The position numbers and the translations under genes are program-made. Below are positions 5,597 to 44,889 of a DNA stretch of 64,000 bases, one piece after another. The DNA is from Gemella sp. zg-570 (GTDB taxonomy: Bacteria; Bacillota; Bacilli; Staphylococcales; Gemellaceae). Within the stretch, counting starts at the first letter, position 1. The number at the start of each line of letters is the position of its first letter. The notes below the pieces were generated by a model that saw only the letters and a list, made by a program, of their open reading frames with translations, was not told where the DNA came from and did no database searches. The DNA lies in contig NZ_CP076443.1 of assembly GCF_018866345.1 (NCBI RefSeq), positions 271,501 to 335,500 on the forward strand. Direction: 5' to 3'.

Positions 5597-8023
5597 GTGT
5601 TTAACCATAGAGTAATAGAAAAAAAATGGCAAGATTATTGGGAAAAAAATAAAACTTTTAAAACAAGCGACGATATGTCTAAGGAAAAATTTTATGCCTT
5701 AGATATGTTTCCTTATCCGTCAGGAGCTGGTCTGCATGTAGGACATCCAGAGGGGTATACAGCAACCGATATATTGAGTAGATATAAAAGAGCTAAGGGT
5801 TATAATGTTCTTCATCCTATGGGCTGGGACGCATTTGGTTTGCCGGCTGAACAATATGCTCTGGATACTGGTAACGACCCGAGAGAATTTACGAAAAAAA
5901 ATATTGACACCTTCCGTCGTCAAATAAAAGAATTAGGATTTTCTTATGATTGGGATAGGGAAGTTGATACAACAGACCCTAACTACTACAAGTGGACGCA
6001 GTGGATTTTTATTCAATTATACAATAAGGGCTTGGCTTATGTTGATGAAGTTCCTGTAAACTGGTGTCCAGCCTTGGGAACAGTTTTATCAAATGAAGAA
6101 GTAGTAGACGGAGTTTCAGAACGTGGAGGTCATCCTGTTGAACGCCGTCCTATGCGACAATGGGTTCTAAAAATAACAGAGTATGCAGAAAGATTACTTC
6201 AAGACTTAGAAGAATTAGACTGGCCTGAAAGTTTAAAAGCTATGCAAAGAAACTGGATTGGAAAATCTGAGGGAGCAGAAGTAGATTTTGAAATTTTTGG
6301 ACATGACGAGAAATTTACAGTATTTACAACACGTCCTGACACCTTGTTTGGAGCAACTTACTGTGTATTAGCTCCTGAACATAAATTAGTAGAAAAAATT
6401 ACAAGCCCTGAACAAAAATATGTAGTTGAAAAATACTTAGAAGAAGTAAAACGCAAATCTGATTTGCAACGTACCGACCTTAACAAAGATAAAACAGGAG
6501 TATTTACTGGAGCTTATGCAATCAATCCAATAAATAATAAAAAAATTCCGATTTGGATAGCTGACTATGTTCTTATGTCTTACGGAACAGGGGCTATCAT
6601 GTCAGTACCTGCCCACGACGAGCGAGATTTTGAATTTGCTAAAAAATTTAATTTGCCGATTATATCAGTAATAGCTGGTGGAGATGTTGAAAAATCTGTC
6701 CACTTAGAAGATAATGAACACATCAATTCAGAATTTTTAGACGGACTTAACAAGGCTGACGCCATAGAAAAAGCAATAGAATTTTTAGAAAAAAATAATT
6801 TAGGTCAGAAAAAAGTAACTTATAAACTGCGTGATTGGTTATTCTCTCGCCAGCGTTACTGGGGAGAACCAATACCAGTAATTACTTGGGAAGATGGAAC
6901 AATGACGACTGTTCCTGAAGATGAATTGCCTTTACTGCTACCAGAAACAGACAATATAAAACCATCTGGCACAGGAGAATCACCCCTAGCTAATCTAAGT
7001 GATTGGGTAAATGTAGTTTGTCAAAAAACTGGTAAAAAAGGAAAAAGAGAAACTAACACAATGCCTCAATGGGCTGGCTCTTGCTGGTACTATTTAAGAT
7101 ACATAGACCCGAATAATAGCGAAAAATTTGCTGACCCAGAAAAATTAAAATATTGGTTGCCAGTTGATATTTATATAGGGGGAGCTGAACATGCAGTTCT
7201 GCATTTACTTTATGCAAGATTTTGGCACAAAGTTTTATACGATTTAGGACTAGTTCCAACAAAAGAACCATTCCAAAAATTATTCAATCAAGGTATGATT
7301 TTAGCAGAAAGTAAAAATGGTAAACCGGAAAAAATGTCTAAATCAAAAGGCAATGTAGTAAATCCAGACGATATTGTAAAATCACACGGAGCTGATACAC
7401 TAAGAGTTTACGAAATGTTTATGGGGCCACTTGATGCGTCGATAGCTTGGTCAACAAATGGTTTAGACGGTTCACGCCGTTTCCTAGATAGAGTTTATCG
7501 TTTGCTTGTTAATGAAGAAACAAATCAAGTTAGTGAAAAAATTGTCGACAAGGATAATACTGATTTAGAAATAAGTTACAATTTCACAGTGAAAAAAGTT
7601 GGAGAAGATATAGAAAATCTACAATTCAATACAGCAATTTCACAACTTATGGTTTTCGTAAACGACTGTAACAAGGCAGAATTTATTCCGAAAAAATACG
7701 CTTTAGGATTTATTCAACTACTGGCTCCATTTGCACCACACTTAGCAGAAGAAATGTGGGCTATATATGGTAATACAGAAACTTTAGCCTATGCTTCATG
7801 GCCGACTTATGACGAAAGCAAACTCGTAAGCAATACAGTAGAAATAGTTGTTCAAGTGCTAGGTAAGGTGAGAACAAAATTAGAACTTGCTAAAGATTTA
7901 TCAAAAGAAGAATTAGAAAAACAAGTTTTAGCTAATAAAGAAGTTCAAACATTAATAGAAGGAAAAAATCTTGTAAAAGTAATTTCAGTTCCAAATAGAT
8001 TAGTAAACTTGGTAGTAAAATAA
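5597..8023 (+). CDS. leuS: Leucyl-tRNA synthetase
   Basis: Charges tRNA-Leu. Seen: class I HIGH signature as HVGH (residues 47-50) within [16 protein letters not shown]; the CP1 editing domain with [13 protein letters not shown] and [16 protein letters not shown]; the KMSKS loop KMSKSKGN; and a C-terminal anticodon-binding domain ending in a short [15 protein letters not shown]. It closely resembles Staphylococcus LeuRS along its whole length. An ATG at 5582 overlaps the ribosome site GGAG (5584-5587). The GTG at 5597 lies 9 bases after it and gives the family-typical short N-terminus ([11 protein letters not shown]), so I choose 5597 (808 residues). Followed 9 bases later by khpA in the same operon. 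Confidence 0.97.
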
Positions 8024-32413: not shown

Positions 32414-32453
32414 AAAAAAATAGTAACTAAAATTTTTAGTTACTATTTTTTTT
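32414..32453. terminator. Bidirectional terminator between converging operons
   Basis: Stem AAATAGTAACTAAAA / TTTTAGTTACTATTT with A-run and T-run on either side, serving the forward polymerase genes and the reverse licD. The licD stop codon (32436-32438) lies inside the stem. Confidence 0.85.
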
Positions 32454-33248
32454 ATCTGTATAATAAGCATAAAATTTATGGGGTACTTGTTCAGATTTTT
32501 TTGGTAATTTCATGTAATCATTGTACAAGTAGGTTAAAACTTCATCATAATTTTTAGGGGCTGGGAATTTATGATTTTCAAATTCTAATTCTATTAATTC
32601 TCTTCCTGTATTAAGAGGTAAAATATCCTTCTCTTTATTTTTGGATATAATAAATGCGGAAAAAGTGGGCTTATTTGAAGTGTATTTTTTTATTATTTTT
32701 TCTATTACTTTAGCAAAAAATTTAGGATGGATAGGTCTTACTAGGTACCACATAATAATCCTGCATAAATCTTTTATTTTACTGTCCTTGTATGTAACAT
32801 TTTCTTTTTTAATAAATGATAGATATTTTAAACTTTCAAAGAAATAACTTATATTAATAACTTTTTTGTTATCAAAATAGTCTAGGGGGAATATATCAAT
32901 AAAAATTCCAGAATCATAACTTTTTGTTAAATCACTGTAAATTATTTTAGTTTCTGAGTTGTGAATTTTAATAAAGTTATTAAAATAATTTTTTTCACTT
33001 TCTAGTGAAAGTATTTTATATTTAGAAGTATCATTTTTAAATAGTTTAATAAATTTATTATAATTTTCTCTAGTCATTGTTATATCTATATCATCATCCC
33101 AGGGGATAAAACCCTTATGTCTTACAGCTCCTAAAAGAGTTCCGTAATTTATAAAATATTCAATATTATTTTTTTTGCAAAAACCATCTATATAAATTAA
33201 TATGTCTAATCCTATTTTTTTTATTTCATTTAATTCTAATTTTTTCAT
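32436..33248 (-). CDS. licD: LicD-family phosphocholine transferase
   Basis: Transfers phosphocholine from CDP-choline to a sugar of the teichoic acid precursor. Seen: the nucleotidyltransferase-like LicD signature YGTLLGAVRHKGFIPWDDD (35-53) and the following DITM; GIFIDIFPLD in the middle; 270 residues, as in LicD1/LicD2. Only one licD is found here, whereas pneumococcus has two or three, so the repeat may carry a single PCho, or other copies lie elsewhere. It starts inside the stop of the upstream flippase gene (ATGA), so the two are coupled. Confidence 0.9.
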   Translation of the reverse strand: MKKLELNEIKKIGLDILIYIDGFCKKNNIEYFINYGTLLGAVRHKGFIPWDDDIDITMTRENYNKFIKLFKNDTSKYKILSLESEKNYFNNFIKIHNSETKIIYSDLTKSYDSGIFIDIFPLDYFDNKKVINISYFFESLKYLSFIKKENVTYKDSKIKDLCRIIMWYLVRPIHPKFFAKVIEKIIKKYTSNKPTFSAFIISKNKEKDILPLNTGRELIELEFENHKFPAPKNYDEVLTYLYNDYMKLPKKSEQVPHKFYAYYTDKKNSN

Positions 33249-34732
33249 TTTGCCAGCCTTTTTATTTTACCTTTTATAAAGTATATAGTATCATAAAGCA
33301 TTTTATCTTTCGATATGTATAAAATTAAGAAATAAATTAGTCCACAAGAAATTATTTTTATAGCAATACTTAGTATAGTTATTTTATTTATGATAATACT
33401 ATGTGGAATAAATTTTTCTACAATTAATGATACTACAAAAAATGTTGAAGAAATTATGGTGTATTTTAAAAAGTTTTGAAGTAAGTTTTTTAAATTCATT
33501 ATATTTTTTCTAATAATAAATTGCACATAGAGTATTACAACTATTATTTCGGCTACTATGGTTGTCATGATGTAGTATTCAGGTGAGAATAAATTATTAT
33601 AGAAGAGTAGAGAATTTAGGGCGAGATTGCTTAAACCCCCAATGGCAATATACAGAGCTAGTTTTTTTTCATAACCTTGTACAAATAAAATTTGAATACC
33701 TATTATATTATCTAAGGCCAAAATTAATGCTCTTATTGCAAATATTGATGTAACTATTCCAGCTGATAAGAATTTATCTCCCCCATAAATAAGAGTAGCT
33801 TCTGTCCCTAAAATCATAAGTCCAAAGCTTATAGGAGTTATTAGAAATAAAAAAAACTGACTTCCCTTATTTATTAAATTGGTATAATCTTCAATTTTAT
33901 TTTCTCCCCAATAGTAGCTTAATCTAGGTATATTAACACTTATGGCACCACTTATAACACCTGTAATTAGCATAACTATATTATAAGATACTACATAGTC
34001 TGATATATTTGTAGATACAGGAGAGTTTGTTAAAAATATTCTATCTAAATAGATATATAGCATATTTAGATTGGATAGTAATAAAATTGTAAATAGGGGG
34101 GATAGTAATTTTAATAAGTTTTTAATTTTAATTTTAACAAACTTAACTTCTTTTTTTATCCATATAAAACTTATTAGCATATTTAAAATTTCTGCTAGGG
34201 TCATTATTGAAACGTAGGGTAATACGTCGTCAGCATCTTTTATGAGAGTAAAGGTTAATGTGAATATTGTTAATCTTACTACTATAGTCTTGTATAAAAT
34301 AAAAGTATAATTTTCAAATGCTTCATTTATCCATTCTATATATAGGAATTGACATAATATTTGGAGACCTAGTATAGAATAAACATATATTTGAATATTA
34401 TTTTTATAATCTAAAAAATTTGTTACGTAAGTATAGTATATCAAAGATGTTATTAAGGTCGATATTACAGACAAAAAAAATAGTTCTGAAAATAATTCAT
34501 TCCTTTTTTTTATATTGTTTTTTACCTTGCTTATAGCTCTAACTCCATAGGTATATATTCCAAATGTGGCAAAAGGAATAAATAGTTGAGCTATGGTGTT
34601 TGATGCATCAAATAAACTTATATTTTCCTTTGATAATGTTCTAGCAATATAGGGTCCTGTAATCAAGGGGGATAGGATATTTAAAACTCTTACTGTAACA
34701 GATGCTAGGGCGTTTATTTTTAAATTCTTCAC
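33245..34732 (-). CDS. TacF/Wzx-like lipid-linked oligosaccharide flippase
   Basis: A membrane protein of 495 residues with about 12-14 helices that should flip undecaprenyl-linked teichoic-acid units. Seen: VTVRVLNILSPLITGPYIAR at the start, FATFGIYTYGVRAISK, and the PST/MOP-family layout. Co-occurrence with licD in one operon, divergent from licA-licB, mirrors the pneumococcal lic1/lic2 arrangement where TacF passes only PCho-decorated chains. Whether this protein has the same selectivity cannot be read from sequence. The start is GTG, 8 bases after GGAG on the reverse strand. Confidence 0.85.
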   Translation of the reverse strand: MKNLKINALASVTVRVLNILSPLITGPYIARTLSKENISLFDASNTIAQLFIPFATFGIYTYGVRAISKVKNNIKKRNELFSELFFLSVISTLITSLIYYTYVTNFLDYKNNIQIYVYSILGLQILCQFLYIEWINEAFENYTFILYKTIVVRLTIFTLTFTLIKDADDVLPYVSIMTLAEILNMLISFIWIKKEVKFVKIKIKNLLKLLSPLFTILLLSNLNMLYIYLDRIFLTNSPVSTNISDYVVSYNIVMLITGVISGAISVNIPRLSYYWGENKIEDYTNLINKGSQFFLFLITPISFGLMILGTEATLIYGGDKFLSAGIVTSIFAIRALILALDNIIGIQILFVQGYEKKLALYIAIGGLSNLALNSLLFYNNLFSPEYYIMTTIVAEIIVVILYVQFIIRKNIMNLKNLLQNFLKYTIISSTFFVVSLIVEKFIPHSIIINKITILSIAIKIISCGLIYFLILYISKDKMLYDTIYFIKGKIKRLAK

Positions 34733-34863: not shown

Positions 34864-35730
34864 TTGAATTATAAAGAAATTATAAAGATTTTTGATAAAA
34901 ATTTTTCTCAAGATGTAAATAATATAGAAGTAATAGGAGGAATGACTAACTACAATTATTTAGTCGAAACAAATAAAAAAAAATATATACTTAAATTTTT
35001 TGGTAGGGGAACAGAAAAATTAATTAGCAGAGAGTTGGAGAAAAAAAATTTAGAGATAGTAAAATTATTTAATCTTGATGTTAATAATTATATATTTGAT
35101 ATAAAACAAGGTATAGAAATAAATGAATATATTGAAAATGCAATTACTTATGATGAAAAAATAATAAAAACAAAATTATCTTCTATATCTAAAATATTAC
35201 AAATAGTTCATTTGTCAAAACCACAATTTAATTCAAAATTTGATATTTTTTTTGAAATTGAAAAGTATGAAAGTTTGATAGAAAATTCTATACCTTATAA
35301 AAATTATAAAGAAATTAAGTTAGAAATAATAAAATTAAAGGAAGAATTAAACAAGATAGGACTTGATTACAAAAATTGTCATATAGACCTGGTTCCTGAA
35401 AATTTTATTGAAGATACTAAGGGTAGAATATATCTTATTGATTGGGAGTATTGTGCAGTAAATGATCCTATGTGGGATATAGCATCCCTATTTTTAGAAT
35501 CTAATTTTATAAAATCAGAGGAAGAAGAATTTTTTAATTTTTATAAAACTGAAAAAACTCCTATAAATCAGCAAAAGATATTTATATATAAAATTTTGCA
35601 AGATATTCTTTGGAGTTTGTGGACGGTTTATAAAGAAGAACAAGGTACATTTTTCGGTACTTACGGGAGAGATAGATATGAAAGAATGTTAAAGAACTTA
35701 GAGGAGTATAAGGCAAGATATGAAAAATAA
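34864..35730 (+). CDS. licA: LicA-like choline/ethanolamine kinase
   Basis: Phosphorylates imported choline with ATP, the first step to CDP-choline. Seen: an APH-type kinase fold with the Brenner motif CHIDLVPENF (His173, Asp175, Asn180) and the metal-binding LIDWEYC just after it; GGMTNYNYLVE in the N-lobe. The catalytic residues are intact, unlike the kinase domain fused to LicC at 41304. A GTG at 34855 lies only one base after AGGAG; the TTG at 34864 has a 10-base spacer, so I choose it (288 residues). The end overlaps licB by 11 bases. Confidence 0.88.
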   Translation: MNYKEIIKIFDKNFSQDVNNIEVIGGMTNYNYLVETNKKKYILKFFGRGTEKLISRELEKKNLEIVKLFNLDVNNYIFDIKQGIEINEYIENAITYDEKIIKTKLSSISKILQIVHLSKPQFNSKFDIFFEIEKYESLIENSIPYKNYKEIKLEIIKLKEELNKIGLDYKNCHIDLVPENFIEDTKGRIYLIDWEYCAVNDPMWDIASLFLESNFIKSEEEEFFNFYKTEKTPINQQKIFIYKILQDILWSLWTVYKEEQGTFFGTYGRDRYERMLKNLEEYKARYEK

Positions 35731-36598
35731 AAGTAAAGTATATATAGGTTTATTTTCTGGCTTATTTTGGGGGATGGGTCTTACTTTAAGCGGCTTATTA
35801 TTTTCTATTTTTGATGTTTCGCCATTTTTAGTTTCGCTTGTTCATGATTTTTTCAGTCTTATTTTTTTAGGGCTATTAATAGTTATAAAATATGGGAAGA
35901 TAAATTTTAAAATATTTTCTAGTATGAAAAATTACAGCTTAGTTCTTGCGGCTATTTTAGCTGGTCCTTTAGGTATGCAGTTTAATTTATATGCCGTTAA
36001 ATATCTTGGTGCAGGCTTTGCTTCGTCAGTTACTGCCATATATCCTGGCTTAGCTGTGGTCTTATCAATAATATTTTTAAAAAATAAGGTTAATAAAGAA
36101 ACTATTTTTGGAATAATTCTTATAGTGCTAGCTTTGTTTTCTCAAACATTTGAAATAAGTAGTGGAGCAAGAACATATTTAGGAATTTTATTTGGTCTAT
36201 TATGTGCTTTGTCTTGGGCTAGTGAGAGTGTATTATCATCTTATGCGATGGATAATGATTTAAGACCCATAGAGGCTCTGTTTATACGTCAAACTACATC
36301 TTTTCTAGCCTATTTACTAATAATAATTTTTAATAAGGTAGATTTTAATTTTGTTGCAAAAGGTAATTTTATATTAATAGTAGTAGGTATGGTTTTAGCA
36401 AATATGCTTTCTTATCTATTATATTATGCTGCCATAAATTATTTGCAGGCTTCAAAAGCTACGGGACTAAATGTTACCTATGTAATTTGGACAGCAGTAT
36501 TTTCATTTATTATTTTAGGAACAGATTTGACTATAAGAACAATTATTAGCTCATTTGTAATAATTTTAGGAGTTTATATTATTATAAGAGAGAAGTAA
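35720..36598 (+). CDS. licB: LicB-like choline permease (EamA/DMT family)
   Basis: Imports choline (possibly other quaternary amines) for PCho synthesis. Seen: ten hydrophobic helices in two EamA repeats, with GLFSGLFWGMGLTLSGLL at the start and GLLCALSWASESVLSSYAMD opening the second repeat; 292 residues, typical for LicB. It overlaps licA by 11 bases with GGAG inside licA, so translation is coupled. A hairpin terminator follows before the next gene. Confidence 0.88.
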   Translation: MKNKSKVYIGLFSGLFWGMGLTLSGLLFSIFDVSPFLVSLVHDFFSLIFLGLLIVIKYGKINFKIFSSMKNYSLVLAAILAGPLGMQFNLYAVKYLGAGFASSVTAIYPGLAVVLSIIFLKNKVNKETIFGIILIVLALFSQTFEISSGARTYLGILFGLLCALSWASESVLSSYAMDNDLRPIEALFIRQTTSFLAYLLIIIFNKVDFNFVAKGNFILIVVGMVLANMLSYLLYYAAINYLQASKATGLNVTYVIWTAVFSFIILGTDLTIRTIISSFVIILGVYIIIREK

Positions 36599-37763: not shown

Positions 37764-38864
37764 ATGAAAAAAATATTATTTACAGTATGGACAACCAGAG
37801 AGGGTGGCGGTGCTGAAAAAATTTTGTCTAATCTAACTAGAGAGTTAGAAAAAAAATACGACATAGATGTCTTAGAAGTTGGAAAATTTAATAATCATAA
37901 AGTTAATCTAGGTGAAAAAACAAGATTATTAAAGCCCCTACTTAATAAAATTGATGATAGGAGAATAAAATATCTTTTTAAGAGACTTTTCTTTGAGTAT
38001 GTTCCTAATCTATATAAAAGGGTTAGATGCCGAAAAAAATATGATTATGAAATAGCCTTTAATTATCTTTATCCTGCTTATTTAATAAATAAAAATACAA
38101 AAAGTATTGCCTGGAATCATGGAAGTATTGAAAATTTACTAGATGAAAAAGAAAAATTTAATAAAATAAAATACGGTAAGGCCTTAAAAAATATTGATAG
38201 AATAGTAGCAATATCAAATAAAACTCAGCAGTCGATAGTTGATGTTTATCCTGAATATGAAGATAAGGTAGTAAAAATATATAATGGCTATGACTTTTCA
38301 GATATAATTAAAAATTCTAAAGAAGAAGTTGAGTATGAAAAAGATTCTTTATTGTTTTTAGGAAGATTAGAAGAAGCTAAGGGGATAAAAAGATTATTGA
38401 ATATCTACTTAGAACTAGTTAAAAAAGATATAAAACAAAAATTATATTTATTAGGAGAAGGTGAATTAAAGTCTTGGGTTGAGGATTTTATTAAAGAAAA
38501 TTCTTTAGAAGATAGAGTAATTTTATTAGGTTACAAATCTAATCCATATCCTTATATAAAATCTTCATCCTATATTTTAATGACTTCAAAAGGTGAAGGG
38601 TTTCCTACCGTTTTTGTTGAAGGTTTAGCACTAGGAGTTGGATTTGTTAGCACAAATGTAGGAGGAGTAGAAGAATTATCTAATTTAGGTAAGTGTGGTT
38701 TTGTTAATGACTACGATAGAGAGTTAATAAATTATTTAGCTAGCGAGTTAAAAAAAGATAAGAAAGATAGATTAATCAAAAAAGAATCTTGTTTAGGTCA
38801 TGTTGAAAATTATACATTAGAAAAGCAAGTTTCAAGTTTAATTAATTTACTTGAGGAGATATAA
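37764..38864 (+). CDS. GT4-family glycosyltransferase (GT-B fold)
   Basis: Retaining glycosyltransferase of 366 residues. Seen: the acceptor loop TTREGGGAEKILSNL (GGGAE), WNHG in the N-domain, FLGRLEEAKG opening the donor domain, and the EX7E pair Glu278 and Glu286 in EGFPTVFVEG. Starts 15 bases after the GT2 gene; the next ORF begins 1 base after its stop. Donor and acceptor unknown. Confidence 0.9.
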   Translation: MKKILFTVWTTREGGGAEKILSNLTRELEKKYDIDVLEVGKFNNHKVNLGEKTRLLKPLLNKIDDRRIKYLFKRLFFEYVPNLYKRVRCRKKYDYEIAFNYLYPAYLINKNTKSIAWNHGSIENLLDEKEKFNKIKYGKALKNIDRIVAISNKTQQSIVDVYPEYEDKVVKIYNGYDFSDIIKNSKEEVEYEKDSLLFLGRLEEAKGIKRLLNIYLELVKKDIKQKLYLLGEGELKSWVEDFIKENSLEDRVILLGYKSNPYPYIKSSSYILMTSKGEGFPTVFVEGLALGVGFVSTNVGGVEELSNLGKCGFVNDYDRELINYLASELKKDKKDRLIKKESCLGHVENYTLEKQVSSLINLLEEI

Positions 38865-38865
38865 T

Positions 38866-39900
38866 ATGAGTAAAAAAATTATTGTACCCACAGGCTATAT
38901 GGGAAGTGGTTCATCTGCAGTAACAGATATACTGCGTGAATATAAGGGGATAAACACAAAAAATGCAGACTATGAATATATATTTTTACATATGCCAGAT
39001 GGAGTTTTTGACTTGGAAGATAAGTTATTATTAAATAATAATGCTCTTAGAAGTGATGAAGCCATTAAAAATTTTAGGAATAAAATTAGTGATTTATATT
39101 CTTTAAGAGGTTGGTGGCCTGGTAATTATAAAAAATATGTATCGGCTAACTTTTTAGATATAGTAGATAAGTATATTCAAAAAATTAAATTTGATAGTTT
39201 TAGTGGAGTTTGGTACTATAATGAAAAATATAGGGGCTTTAAACTTTATAAAAGAGCTATAATCAATAGAAGTCTAAAACTTTTTAATAAGCCACCTAAA
39301 TTAGATAAATTTGATATAGAGTACACATTTATAAAAGAGGATAAATTTTATCAATATACAGGAGAATTTATAGAAGATTTTGTAGAGGAATTAAATAAAG
39401 ATAGTGAAAAGGATATAGTATTAGACCAACTTTTATTGCCTCACAATGTATATAGGTTGGATAATTATGCTAAGTATTTAGATATTAAGGTTGTGATAGT
39501 AGAAAGAGATCCCAGAGATGTTTTCATCATGAACAAATATGTATGGGTTAAAAATGGGGTACCAGTCTTATATCCTGAAGACGTTTATAAATTTTGTCGC
39601 TATTATAAAGAAATGAGAGAGAATGAAAGAAAAAATAATTATGAGGTTTTAAGAATAAAATTTGAAGACTTAATTTTTAACTATGATAATAGTATAAAAA
39701 TGATAGAGGCTTACCTAAATTTAGATTCTACTAATCATATAAAGAAAAGAAAATATTTTAATCCTGATATTTCAATAAATAATATTCAAATTTATAAGCA
39801 AGAAAAATATAAAGAGGAAGTAGCAGTAATTGAGAAAGAATTAGAAAATTATCTTCATATTACAAATAAAGAGGTAGTTTCTAATGCAAATCCTTTTTAG
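38866..39900 (+). CDS. Sulfotransferase-like P-loop protein
   Basis: 344 residues with features of PAPS-dependent sulfotransferases: an N-terminal P-loop-like VPTGYMGSGSSAVTDIL (7-23) for the 5'-phosphosulfate, and VIVERDPRDVFIMNKY, with Arg214 and Arg217 in the place of the 3'-phosphate-binding strand-helix. The usual Ser of that helix is absent. If active, it would sulfate a sugar or transfer another group within the glycan; a kinase-like role is also possible. A TTG at 38851 opens the frame earlier, but the ATG at 38866 sits 7 bases after AGGAG. Tightly packed between a GT4 and a GT2 gene. Confidence 0.6.
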   Translation: MSKKIIVPTGYMGSGSSAVTDILREYKGINTKNADYEYIFLHMPDGVFDLEDKLLLNNNALRSDEAIKNFRNKISDLYSLRGWWPGNYKKYVSANFLDIVDKYIQKIKFDSFSGVWYYNEKYRGFKLYKRAIINRSLKLFNKPPKLDKFDIEYTFIKEDKFYQYTGEFIEDFVEELNKDSEKDIVLDQLLLPHNVYRLDNYAKYLDIKVVIVERDPRDVFIMNKYVWVKNGVPVLYPEDVYKFCRYYKEMRENERKNNYEVLRIKFEDLIFNYDNSIKMIEAYLNLDSTNHIKKRKYFNPDISINNIQIYKQEKYKEEVAVIEKELENYLHITNKEVVSNANPF

Positions 39901-41079: not shown

Positions 41080-41303
41080 TTTTCATAAAATTATTGTTTA
41101 AACAGTAGCAAAAATTTACATAGTAAAGTCAAAATTTATAATAAATTCAATTTTAATTTTTTATATTTGTTAGTATCATAAAAAATTTTTTATAAACATA
41201 TTTCTTTTAATTTTTCTTTACTAATAATAGTTACTGTGATATTATTTTATAGTATGTTCAAATAAGGAATATTAAAATAAAAAAATGAACATTGGAGAGA
41301 AAA

Positions 41304-43082
41304 TTGAAAGAAGCAAAATTTAATTTATTAAATATTATTGAAAAAAATGGTAATAAGTATTTATCGCAAAGAGAAATTGCAGAAAGGTTATCTATATCAT
41401 TAGGAAAAGTAAATTCTTTAATAGCAGAATTAAAAAATGAAAATTTATTAAGTGAAGATATAAGTATTACGGAGAAGGGTTATAAATCTTTAGAACCTTA
41501 CAAAGTTCAAAATGCTGTAATTATGGCAGCAGGTATGAGTAGTAGATTTGCTCCCTTATCCTATGAAAGTCCCAAAGGATTATTAATAGTCAAGGGCGAA
41601 AAATTAATAGAAAGACAGATAAAACAACTTCAAGAGGTTGGAATAAATGATATTACTCTAGTAGTAGGTTACATGAAAGAAAAAATGTTTTATCTCGAAG
41701 AAAAATTTAATGTAAATATAGTTATTAATTCAGACTATAATAGATATAATAATAGCTCATCATTAAAACTTGTAACTCATAAATTAGCTAATACCTATAT
41801 TTGTTCTTCAGATAATTATTTTGTAGAAAATCCATTTGAAAAATATGTATATCACGCCTATTATTCTTGTGTTTTTGAAGCTGGTTCAACAGAAGAATAC
41901 TGTGTTAGCTATGACAAAAAAAATAGAATTTTAGATGTAACTATCGGCGGAAAAGATTCTTGGACAATGTTGGGGCATGTTTATTTTGATAAAAATTTTA
42001 GTGATAAATTTGTAGAAATTTTGAATAATGAATATAAGTATTCAATTACAAAAGAAAAATTGTGGGAAGACCTATATATTAGATACATTAAAGATTTAGA
42101 TTTATCTATAAGAAAATATGACAAATCAAATATCAAAGAATTTGATTCACTAGAAGATTTAAGAAGTTTTGATGAAAAATATATTAATAATGCTAACTCA
42201 GATATTTTAAGAAATATTTGCAAAGTATTAGATTGTAAAGAAAGCGATATAGTCAATATAAAACCTATACAATCAACTGCAACCAATACTTCATTTAAGT
42301 TCAAAGTTTTAGGGAAAAATTATGTTTATAGGCATCCTGATATAGATACAGAACTTTATATTAATAGGGCTAGTGAAGTAGCTACCTTAGAAATTGCTAA
42401 AAAATTGGAAATAGATAAGTCATACATATATGTAGATAAAAAAGAAGGTTGGAAATTAGCTTATTTTATGTATGACACAACAAGTCTGGATTATAAGAAT
42501 AAAGAACATGTATCAAAGGCTATTAAAATATTAAAAAAACTTCATAATAGTAGCGAAACTACATCTTTTGAATTTAATATTTGGCATGAAATAGATAAAT
42601 TAAAAAAACATTTGTCTAAATATAAAAGAACAGATTTTAATAATATGTCTTATATGGAAGATATGATAGCAAAATTAAAAGTATATTTAGAAAATAAGGA
42701 TTCAAAAAAAACTTTATGTAATATCAACACGAATCCATCAAATTTTATAATTGATAAAGAAGATAAAATGTATCTGATAGATTGGGAATATTCTGGAATG
42801 GCTGACCCTGCATTAGACTTAGGAACTTTTATTTCTTGTTCAGATTTTAATTTAGAAGAAGTGGAGAAAACAATAGCAGATTATCTTGAATACAAACCAA
42901 GTGGCAAAGAGTTAGGACACTTTTTTGCTTATATTTCTGTAATGTCATTTTACTGGTTTTTATGGGCAATAAATCAAGAAAACAAGGGCAAGATAATTGG
43001 AGAATATCTTTATACTTGGTATAAATTCAGTAATTTTTATGGTAAAAAAGCATTAGAAGTTTACAAAAAAACCAAGACATAA
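41304..43082 (+). CDS. licC: HTH - LicC cytidylyltransferase - LicA-like kinase fusion, with a degenerate kinase active site
   Basis: A three-domain protein of 592 residues. Residues 1-65: winged helix (SQREIAERLSISLGKVNSLI). About 70-300: nucleotidyltransferase with AVIMAAGMSSRFAPLSYESP and the Lys that follows, as in LicC, expected to make CDP-choline from phosphocholine and CTP. About 310-592: choline-kinase fold. Its Brenner motif reads CNINTNPSNF: Asn473 and Asn475 replace the catalytic His and Asp that the standalone LicA keeps, while IDWEYSG with Asp493 is intact. The kinase domain is therefore probably inactive or altered. Start: TTG at 41304, 6 bases after GGAG; a TTG at 41292 overlaps that site. 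The 3' end lies inside the right-hand direct repeat. Confidence 0.88.
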   Translation: MKEAKFNLLNIIEKNGNKYLSQREIAERLSISLGKVNSLIAELKNENLLSEDISITEKGYKSLEPYKVQNAVIMAAGMSSRFAPLSYESPKGLLIVKGEKLIERQIKQLQEVGINDITLVVGYMKEKMFYLEEKFNVNIVINSDYNRYNNSSSLKLVTHKLANTYICSSDNYFVENPFEKYVYHAYYSCVFEAGSTEEYCVSYDKKNRILDVTIGGKDSWTMLGHVYFDKNFSDKFVEILNNEYKYSITKEKLWEDLYIRYIKDLDLSIRKYDKSNIKEFDSLEDLRSFDEKYINNANSDILRNICKVLDCKESDIVNIKPIQSTATNTSFKFKVLGKNYVYRHPDIDTELYINRASEVATLEIAKKLEIDKSYIYVDKKEGWKLAYFMYDTTSLDYKNKEHVSKAIKILKKLHNSSETTSFEFNIWHEIDKLKKHLSKYKRTDFNNMSYMEDMIAKLKVYLENKDSKKTLCNINTNPSNFIIDKEDKMYLIDWEYSGMADPALDLGTFISCSDFNLEEVEKTIADYLEYKPSGKELGHFFAYISVMSFYWFLWAINQENKGKIIGEYLYTWYKFSNFYGKKALEVYKKTKT

Positions 43083-43841
43083 ATTAAAAAAATTTTACTT
43101 ATTATTTATTTTTGTAACCAAAAAGTAATAAAAAAGAAACTCTACAGATATTATAAATAAAGAAAATATATGTTAGAATAATCTAGCATAAAGAATATAA
43201 AAAAATATCTTGTGGAGAGAAAAAATGAAAAGAAATAAGACAAAAAAAATATTGATGATGCTAGCAGTAATGACTAGTCCATTAATAGTAAATCAAGTAG
43301 TGGAAGAAAAAATAGCATCAGCACAAAGTCTAGGCTGGTATCAAGAAAATGGCAAATGGTACTATTTAGAAGCAGACGGCAGCCTAGCAAAAAACAAGTG
43401 GATAGGAGACTACTACCTAGGAGCAAATGGAGCGATGCTAACAAGTAGTTGGACACCAGACGGCTACTATGTAGATGAAAATGGTAAGTGGGTTCCCAAC
43501 AAAGCCAAACAAACAGGCTGGTATCAAGAAAATGGCAAATGGTACTATTTAGAAGCAGACGGCAACCTAGCAAAAAACAAGTGGATAGGAGACTACTACC
43601 TAGGAGCAAATGGAGCGATGCTAACAAGTAGTTGGACACCAGACGGCTACTATGTAGATTACAGTGGTAAGTGGCTAGCAAACAAAACAAAACAAACAGG
43701 CTGGCATCAAGAAAATGGCAAATGGTACTATTTAGAAGCAGACGGCAGCCTAGCAAAAAACAAGTGGATAGGAGACTACTACCTAGGAGTAAATGGAGCA
43801 ATGCTAACAAGTAGTTGGACACCAGACGGCTACTATGTAGA
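43071..43841 (+). repeat. Right copy of the ~770-bp direct repeat bounding the phosphocholine locus
   Basis: Near-identical to 25580-26349. It begins 12 bases before the stop codon's end of the licC-licA fusion gene and runs through the promoter region and three choline-binding modules of the GH25 gene. Confidence 0.93.
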
Positions 43842-44889
43842 CTACAGAGGCAAGTGGCTAGCAAACAAAACAAAACAAACAGGCTGGCATCAAGAAAATG
43901 GAAAATGGTATTATTTAGAAGCAGACGGAAGCCTAGCAAAAAGCAAGTGGATAGGAGACTACTACCTAGGAGCAAATGGAGCAATGCTAACAAGTAGTTG
44001 GACACCAGACGGCTACTATGTAGATGAAAATGGTAAGTGGCTAGCAAACAAAACAAAACAAACAGGCTGGCATCAAGAAAATGGAAAATGGTATTATTTA
44101 GAAGCAGACGGAAGCCTAGCAAAAAACAAGTGGATAGGAGACTACTACCTAGGAGTAAATGGAGCAATGCTAACAAGTAGTTTGCCATCAGACGGCTACC
44201 ATGTAGACTACATAGACAACAAAGTTAATAAAGAAAATATCAGCTACAAATTTACCCCTAAAAAAATAGCAGATATAAGCGAACATAATCTTGATATAGA
44301 TTTTTCAAAATTAAAACATGAAGTTGATGGGCTAATAATTCGTGCTGGTTTTGGAACAGTAAGAGAAGATAGAAAATTTAGAGAATATGCCAACGCAGCC
44401 TTAAAAGAAGGTATTCCATTTGGATTTTATTGGTACTCTTACGCTCTTAATGAAGAGCAGGCTAAAGCTGAAGCAAATATGTTTCTAAATACAATTAAAA
44501 ACTATAAGCCAGAATACCCAATATTTGTTGATATGGAGGATGCTGATTATTGGAAAGAAAAACAAGGTTCACATCACCCAGCAAATTCTTGGCAAGGAAG
44601 AGAAAATATAATAAAAACTCATATAGATATTTACAAGGAAAATGGTTACTTAGGTGGAGTATACGCCTCTAGAAATTGGTTTAATAGTATGTCAAACGAC
44701 TTAAATAAGTATAATCGCTGGGTAGCTCACTGGACTCAAGATCCTAACACTTATGTTGCTTCTTCATATGGAATGCATCAATATACTTCAGATGGTTCTG
44801 CTGCCGGAGTACCTGGGAGACTAGATTTAAGTATGTCATTTGTAGATTATCCAAAAATAATAAAAAATGGTGGCTTTAATAATTGGTAA
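43225..44889 (+). CDS. Choline-binding GH25 lysozyme (LytC-like)
   Basis: A secreted muramidase of 554 residues predicted to bind PCho. Seen: the same signal peptide as the GH73 protein (cleavage near 33); five 61-residue choline-binding modules starting about 37, 98, 159, 220 and 281, the last altered to SSLPSDGYHVDY; then a GH25 domain (about 343-554) with IADISEHN (Asp350) and FVDMED (Asp436, Glu438) as active-site acids, and a conserved AHWTQDP block. N-terminal modules with a C-terminal GH25 domain match pneumococcal LytC. The TTG at 43210 is part of the ribosome site; ATG 43225 follows GTGGAG. Two tandem terminators follow. Confidence 0.93.
   Translation: MKRNKTKKILMMLAVMTSPLIVNQVVEEKIASAQSLGWYQENGKWYYLEADGSLAKNKWIGDYYLGANGAMLTSSWTPDGYYVDENGKWVPNKAKQTGWYQENGKWYYLEADGNLAKNKWIGDYYLGANGAMLTSSWTPDGYYVDYSGKWLANKTKQTGWHQENGKWYYLEADGSLAKNKWIGDYYLGVNGAMLTSSWTPDGYYVDYRGKWLANKTKQTGWHQENGKWYYLEADGSLAKSKWIGDYYLGANGAMLTSSWTPDGYYVDENGKWLANKTKQTGWHQENGKWYYLEADGSLAKNKWIGDYYLGVNGAMLTSSLPSDGYHVDYIDNKVNKENISYKFTPKKIADISEHNLDIDFSKLKHEVDGLIIRAGFGTVREDRKFREYANAALKEGIPFGFYWYSYALNEEQAKAEANMFLNTIKNYKPEYPIFVDMEDADYWKEKQGSHHPANSWQGRENIIKTHIDIYKENGYLGGVYASRNWFNSMSNDLNKYNRWVAHWTQDPNTYVASSYGMHQYTSDGSAAGVPGRLDLSMSFVDYPKIIKNGGFNNW

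Follow-up and report, generated by a model that had tools for sequence, protein, structure and literature searches.

The gene at 41304–43082 of the window, as we call the whole stretch of 64,000 nucleotides analysed here, probably encodes a NadR-like, autoregulating CDP-choline synthase, in which, once a separate LicA had taken over, the kinase half turned into a pseudokinase. Tentatively, we go one step further and read the former choline kinase as the ligand sensor of a CDP-choline synthase that represses its own gene alone. The same conversion would have begun independently in P. parva, and the fusions would form an unreported NadR-like family of autoregulating enzymes with a conserved operator. 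Cell-surface phosphocholine shapes the host contact of many mouth and gut bacteria, and to our knowledge little is known on the control of its supply.

Results

Domain Organisation of the Fusion Protein

The frame opens at TTG 41292 or TTG 41304 and runs to 43082; the start at 41304 is preferred because of the GGAGAG that precedes it (Table 1). The protein consists of a winged helix (residues 1–66), a LicC-type cytidylyltransferase (67–296) and a LicA-type kinase (300–592), and HTH_24, NTP_transf_3 and APH each score above the Pfam cut-offs. In sequence and fold searches of the PDB, residues 70–293 match LicC (1jyk) and residues 307–573 match LicA (4r77), with additional fold matches to 1jyl and 4r7b, respectively. 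The AlphaFold model is confident, kinase domain included (mean pLDDT 91). These Pfam, PDB sequence and fold matches confirm the winged-helix/LicC/LicA fusion that a preliminary description had proposed for this frame. The order winged helix, LicC, LicA, matched at full length, is referred to here as a type-I fusion.

Table 1. Features of the fusion gene and its surroundings (positions within the window).
Position	Strand	Feature	Evidence
32436..33248	-	LicD family phosphocholine transferase	PF04991 5.8e-52
33245..34732	-	polysaccharide flippase-like protein	PF01943
34855..35730	+	standalone LicA choline kinase, intact CHIDLVPENF	frame, Pfam, genome search
35720..36598	+	LicB-like EamA transporter, no licC after it, unlike Gemella	locus comparison
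41217..41245	+	promoter-like TTTACT-17-TATTAT, TG before second hexamer	consensus match only; no commoner than in shuffles
41255..41291	+	operator-like inverted repeat TGTTCA-N25-TGAACA	genome's only exact copy; gap distribution
41294..41299	+	ribosome-binding site GGAGAG before TTG 41304	read in sequence
41304..43082	+	HTH-LicC-LicA fusion gene, 592 aa	frame, Pfam, PDB matches
41304..41501	+	winged helix-turn-helix domain, recognition helix ISLGKVN intact	HTH_24 1.6e-7; conserved positions unchanged
41502..42191	+	CTP:phosphocholine cytidylyltransferase (LicC) domain, looks intact	sequence and fold match; genome's only LicC
42201..43079	+	choline-kinase (LicA) domain, predicted pseudokinase	Pfam, alignment, model
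42276..42278	+	P-loop Gly325 to Thr	alignment
42339..42347	+	GxGT loop, Gly346 and Gly348 both to Asp	alignment
42459..42461	+	hinge Ser386 to Ala	alignment
42717..42746	+	Brenner motif CNINTNPSNF: His473 to Asn (42720), Asp475 to Asn (42726), Asn480 kept	sequence and alignment
42777..42791	+	IDWEY kept (D493, E495, choline-cage Y496)	sequence; residue roles from PMC4364537
43210..44889	+	choline-binding-repeat protein with GH25 domain, directly 3' of fusion	PF19085, PF01183

The Kinase Half Has Lost ATP and Catalytic Motifs

The Asn codons described earlier for the Brenner motif are present as AAT at 42720 and AAC at 42726 (codons from 42717: TGT AAT ATC AAC ACG AAT CCA TCA AAT TTT). It was also correctly noted that IDWE is retained, with its Asp codon at 42780, and that the kinase fold remains, as seen from the match to 4r77 and the confident model. 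The extent of the change had been understated: besides His and Asp, the P-loop and the GxGT loop have lost their Gly residues (one and two, respectively) and the hinge its Ser. Where an active LicA has HxD(x4)N, the fusion reads NxN(x4)N, and where it has the P-loop Gly and GxGT, the fusion carries G325T, G346D and G348D.

Seventy-three fusions were compared, and positions at least 90% conserved in the fusion alignment were regarded as near-invariant. H473 is conserved in 100% and D475 in 97% of the other aligned fusions. Near-invariant positions were changed in the query at 0/5 in the HTH, 0/59 in the LicC half and 6/38 in the kinase half (Fisher p 0.003), the six changes being G325T, G346D, G348D, S386A, H473N and D475N. 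Within the kinase half, 6 of the 16 near-invariant positions in ATP and catalytic motifs were lost versus none of the 22 others (Fisher p 0.003). This set of 16 takes in the GxGT loop and the hinge by homology and was defined after the changes were seen; restricted to residues named in the LicA paper (PMC4364537), the split is 3/10 versus 3/28 and not significant. A sequencing error is unlikely, considering six coherent changes, a clean frame of 593 codons and a single-contig genome.

In LicA the choline cage is formed by Y197, W251, W254 and Y268 (PMC4364537), and the query retains this aromatic cage as Y496, W551, W554 and Y568. The P-loop Thr contact is retained as well. The equivalent of LicA D176, the Asp that forms a hydrogen bond with the choline hydroxyl, is Asn, and the position of LicA Glu213, a choline contact at the pocket rim, is Cys throughout the branch of the query's fusion, so choline binding is not certain. 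Taken together, the kinase half is a predicted pseudokinase, in which catalysis would be lost with the fold and the choline pocket retained.

The Fusion Is the Only LicC Candidate of the Genome

The genome consists of one contig of 1.56 Mb. A Gemella LicC used as query hit the fusion in it (E 6.5e-37) and otherwise gave weak matches to general nucleotidyltransferases but no separate licC, which leaves the fusion as the sole LicC candidate. The proposed cytidylyltransferase role is in agreement with this, with the unchanged near-invariant positions of the LicC half and with its fold match to 1jyk. This half is 34% identical to pneumococcal LicC over the whole enzyme; in an alignment by eye, two substrate-side Asp of the pneumococcal protein correspond to Ser168 and Glu255 (residue numbers from PMC6697681). 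The LicA half has the same fold as pneumococcal LicA (26%). Unlike the fusion, the pneumococcal enzymes are separate proteins without an HTH, and the LicA half of the fusion lacks the catalytic residues.

The motif CHIDLVPENF was rightly ascribed to the LicA of the same locus. The usual Gemella locus has the order licA-licB-licC followed by a choline-binding-repeat gene, and the fusion adjoins the choline-binding-protein gene at the same place as licC in Gemella. This neighbouring gene (43210) is lysozyme-like. Glycosyltransferase genes are also present in the window, and a sulfotransferase-like frame between glycosyltransferases (38851–39900), without a Pfam match, may tailor the surface polymer. 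A 304-aa frame on the minus strand (43274–44188), antisense to the choline-binding repeats, is presumably an artefact of repeat composition.

Kinase Loss Occurred on the Query Lineage

Searches of the genus, family, order and class, together with one scan of a species-genome collection, gave 72 further type-I fusions; neither plasmids nor phages, the latter searched with a LicC, yielded anything useful. The fusions of Gemella, Parvimonas, Streptococcus and others resemble the query over their full length (50–59% in the nearest groups) and share its operator, but unlike the query almost all of them possess an intact HxD kinase. The nearest fusions are from two Gemella genomes, one of them G. 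sanguinis ATCC 700632 (L037), and have the motif CHCDSYDPNF. The idea that NxN is a conserved trait of the lineage, for which an alignment had been suggested as a check, was dropped, since these nearest relatives read HxD.

In the tree built from the LicC half, the query and the Gemella fusions are sister groups (support 92). As the kinase of this sister is intact, the tree suggests that the loss took place on the query lineage. In relative-rate tests the kinase half of the query was about 1.5–2 times faster than that of the Gemella sister (p 0.001–0.12, depending on the outgroup), while the LicC half had no speed-up. The faster change of the kinase half also fits decay.

Repeated Kinase Loss beside Second Kinases

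Judging from the sequences, the kinase was lost on several occasions in the presence of a second kinase, and the fusions with damaged kinases occupy separate branches of the tree. The type-I fusion of P. parva (G517) carries N328K, P345R, G346S, G348E and D475N, corresponding to the loss of 5 of the 16 ATP/catalytic positions and of none of the others; positions 346, 348 and 475 were hit in parallel in the query, and the choline cage is retained here too. P. parva also has a second fusion with an intact kinase. Genome G531 shows a clean reciprocal split: its type-I fusion stops behind the LicC half, and another of its proteins has kept the kinase but not the LicC part. In KA00581 (G516) a cut-off type-I fusion is accompanied by a second, full-length fusion. 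Both truncated relatives retain the LicC domain. G530 combines an intact type-I fusion with a further protein that lacks LicC, and G518 and G529 have a single fusion each, with intact kinase; these genomes, G531 and KA00581 all belong to the Parvimonas group. In an uncultured Clostridium (L105) one chain carries a degenerate kinase and, behind it, another kinase.

The query and 3/3 damaged Parvimonas-group genomes have another LicA-like protein, L105 being the exception. This recurrent loss beside a second kinase makes redundancy the likely reason why the loss was possible. Across all genomes the association between redundancy and loss had the right direction but fell short of significance, as an intact fusion and an intact second kinase coexist in many streptococci and others. 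Since certain streptococci possess LicA next to an intact fusion, redundancy is not sufficient for the loss. For Parvimonas, dN/dS of the P. parva kinase (0.10–0.12) was not clearly different from that of intact pairs (0.08–0.14).

A Conserved Putative Operator in Front of the Fusion Genes

The putative operator is the strongest new result of this analysis and applies to the whole fusion family. The repeat was first noticed by aligning the promoters of Parvimonas fusions and was then searched upstream of all fusions. Near the start, TGTTCA-N24-26-TGAACA is present exactly in 37/72 fusion genes and with one mismatch in 18 more; the fusions with operator span phyla. Over 69 type-I loci, 45 of the 51 distinct sites with TGTTCA..TGAACA pairs had gaps of 24–26. 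The same word pair occurred 6 times at all other gaps from 0 to 60, and five control word pairs gave 2–7 occurrences in all and none at gaps 24–26. At about 24 loci of LicC/LicA genes without HTH, no operator was seen. The query genome has exactly one exact copy, immediately ahead of the fusion's ribosome site, against an expectation of 0.01 per window. Other genomes have about one background copy each of the pattern or its control. These sequence data strongly support an operator in front of the fusion, to which its winged helix would bind.

In the preliminary description it was proposed that the fusion could regulate its own locus. The sequences support this for its own gene, with the conserved and genome-unique repeat in front of it, but not for licA, licB and licD, where no exact site exists. 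Regulation of its own gene by the fusion is well supported by the comparison of loci. A wider regulon in the query was rejected on the grounds of the single exact site; a pair with one mismatch at 6685 in the window lies away from the fusion. In Parvimonas the left arm of the operator overlaps the −35 region, with TATAAT 17 bp on, and in the query the repeat stands after the promoter-like pair. This position at the promoter or ribosome site suggests repression.

The operator is lost in G531 and KA00581, the two relatives with truncated kinases, and Gly34 of the recognition helix, otherwise at least 90% conserved, is changed to Glu and Asp, respectively. The fusion of Treponema (L086) is likewise without Gly34 and without operator. 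The query and P. parva, mutated and of full length, kept both the operator and the recognition-helix Gly. It seems that HTH, operator and kinase fold are kept or lost together, whereas kinase catalysis can go alone; the co-loss of operator and kinase on truncation rests on two lineages.

Some fusion loci have no site beside the fusion and an exact site further upstream. This is the case at L053, L056 and L097, where it stands before a nucleotidyltransferase-aminotransferase gene (L056 2942–4829, L053 3191–5134, L097 3265–5152). The operator before this gene hints at a link with aminoethylphosphonate chemistry.

Discussion

In the mechanism that we propose, the separate LicA would provide phosphocholine, which the LicC domain would convert into CDP-choline, and LicD would then transfer phosphocholine to the surface polymer. 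The winged helix, within a dimer, would bind the repeat at 41255–41291 around the likely transcription start and repress the fusion gene. The kinase half would have lost ATP use and phosphotransfer, made redundant by the standalone LicA, and the folded pseudokinase would have stayed for regulation, either by dimerisation or by taking up choline or a related ligand in its aromatic cage. The sequence data demonstrate the domains, the lost residues, the single LicC and the operator; from these we infer repression, a dimer and ligand binding by the fusion.

It is rather unlikely, but to be taken seriously, that the kinase half is a passenger that decays neutrally since LicA took over, which would make the protein an autoregulated LicC. 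Such decay would account for the modest acceleration compared to the Gemella sister, for the two relatives that truncated the kinase domain outright and kept LicC, and for the second LicA-like protein in all damaged cases outside the L105 tandem; about 15–20 neutral changes would leave no stop in 18–28% of cases. However, 293 codons remain open in DNA of 30% GC, the choline cage is intact, as are all 22 near-invariant positions without a catalytic role, and the truncated relatives also lost the operator and the recognition helix, as if regulation needs the domain. Loss of only ATP and catalytic positions, with fold and cage kept, is what a pseudokinase sensor would require. The pattern of loss favours a retained non-catalytic role over plain decay, without proving it.

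Within this retained role, the preliminary description had suggested choline sensing by the predicted dead domain, which is plausible from the sequence. That choline or phosphocholine in this domain switches operator binding is a special case of our preferred explanation and, in our opinion, possible although doubtful. The cage is kept in the query and P. parva with the ATP motifs lost, and HTH and operator are intact. There is also a precedent in BtAraR of the NrtR family, where ligand sensing is done by a Nudix domain devoid of its catalytic residues and binding of L-arabinose moves the winged helix (PMC4666351). The folds differ from those of the fusion, the LicC domain of which still looks active. 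On the other side stand the Cys at the Glu213 position throughout the branch and the Asn at the D176 equivalent, though the P-loop Thr contact is kept, and the signal could just as well be CDP-choline or phosphocholine in the LicC domain. We consider it very improbable that the kinase is still active through non-canonical residues or on another substrate. Pneumococcal LicA D176A retains about 14% activity (PMC4364537), which is why the domain is called dead by inference, and the query keeps D493, E495, N480, R343 and K384; but the Brenner His and Asp are missing along with the P-loop Gly and GxGT, and the genome has a second, intact LicA.

Our preferred explanation, an autoregulating enzyme with a pseudokinase, resembles NadR of Enterobacterales, an HTH-nucleotidyltransferase-kinase repressor of NAD salvage. 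Both have an N-terminal HTH followed by a nucleotidyltransferase (in NadR NMN adenylyltransferase) and a kinase (ribosylnicotinamide kinase), and, as the fusion may do, NadR combines two successive salvage steps with repression (PMC12421817). NadR belongs to the NAD and not to the choline pathway and has an unrelated kinase fold, and no homology is claimed: the domains of the fusion match LicC and LicA, not NMN adenylyltransferase and ribosylnicotinamide kinase, and it is no member of the NadR family. Unlike NadR, the fusion has a kinase predicted to be inactivated and an exact site only at its own gene. No description of an HTH-LicC-LicA fusion as regulator, or of the operator, was found in the open-access literature searched.

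The conserved operator would tie a CDP-choline-making enzyme to its own transcription in many genera and offers a clear test object. Among the query and its relatives, intact, mutated full-length and truncated kinases form a natural series in which catalysis and regulation by one protein come apart, and from which the change of an enzyme into a sensor might be learned.

The fusions and their neighbourhoods vary in further respects. The chain of the uncultured Clostridium (L105 5992–8610) comprises 873 aa in the order HTH-LicC-degenerate LicA-second LicA, and its LicC half is without the conserved SRF Arg and may be inactive. Second-type proteins of the Parvimonas group that lost the LicC domain and kept the kinase are encoded at L144 1483–2436 and L145 1474–2538. 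The second fusion type of Parvimonas adjoins a BCCT choline/betaine transporter (L142, L143), and type-I fusions in some genomes adjoin an NCS1-type permease (cytosine/purine family). Two streptococcal loci (L048, L054) have two tandem intact fusions with an operator each, and one of these genomes has a close LicA homologue besides the tandem fusions.
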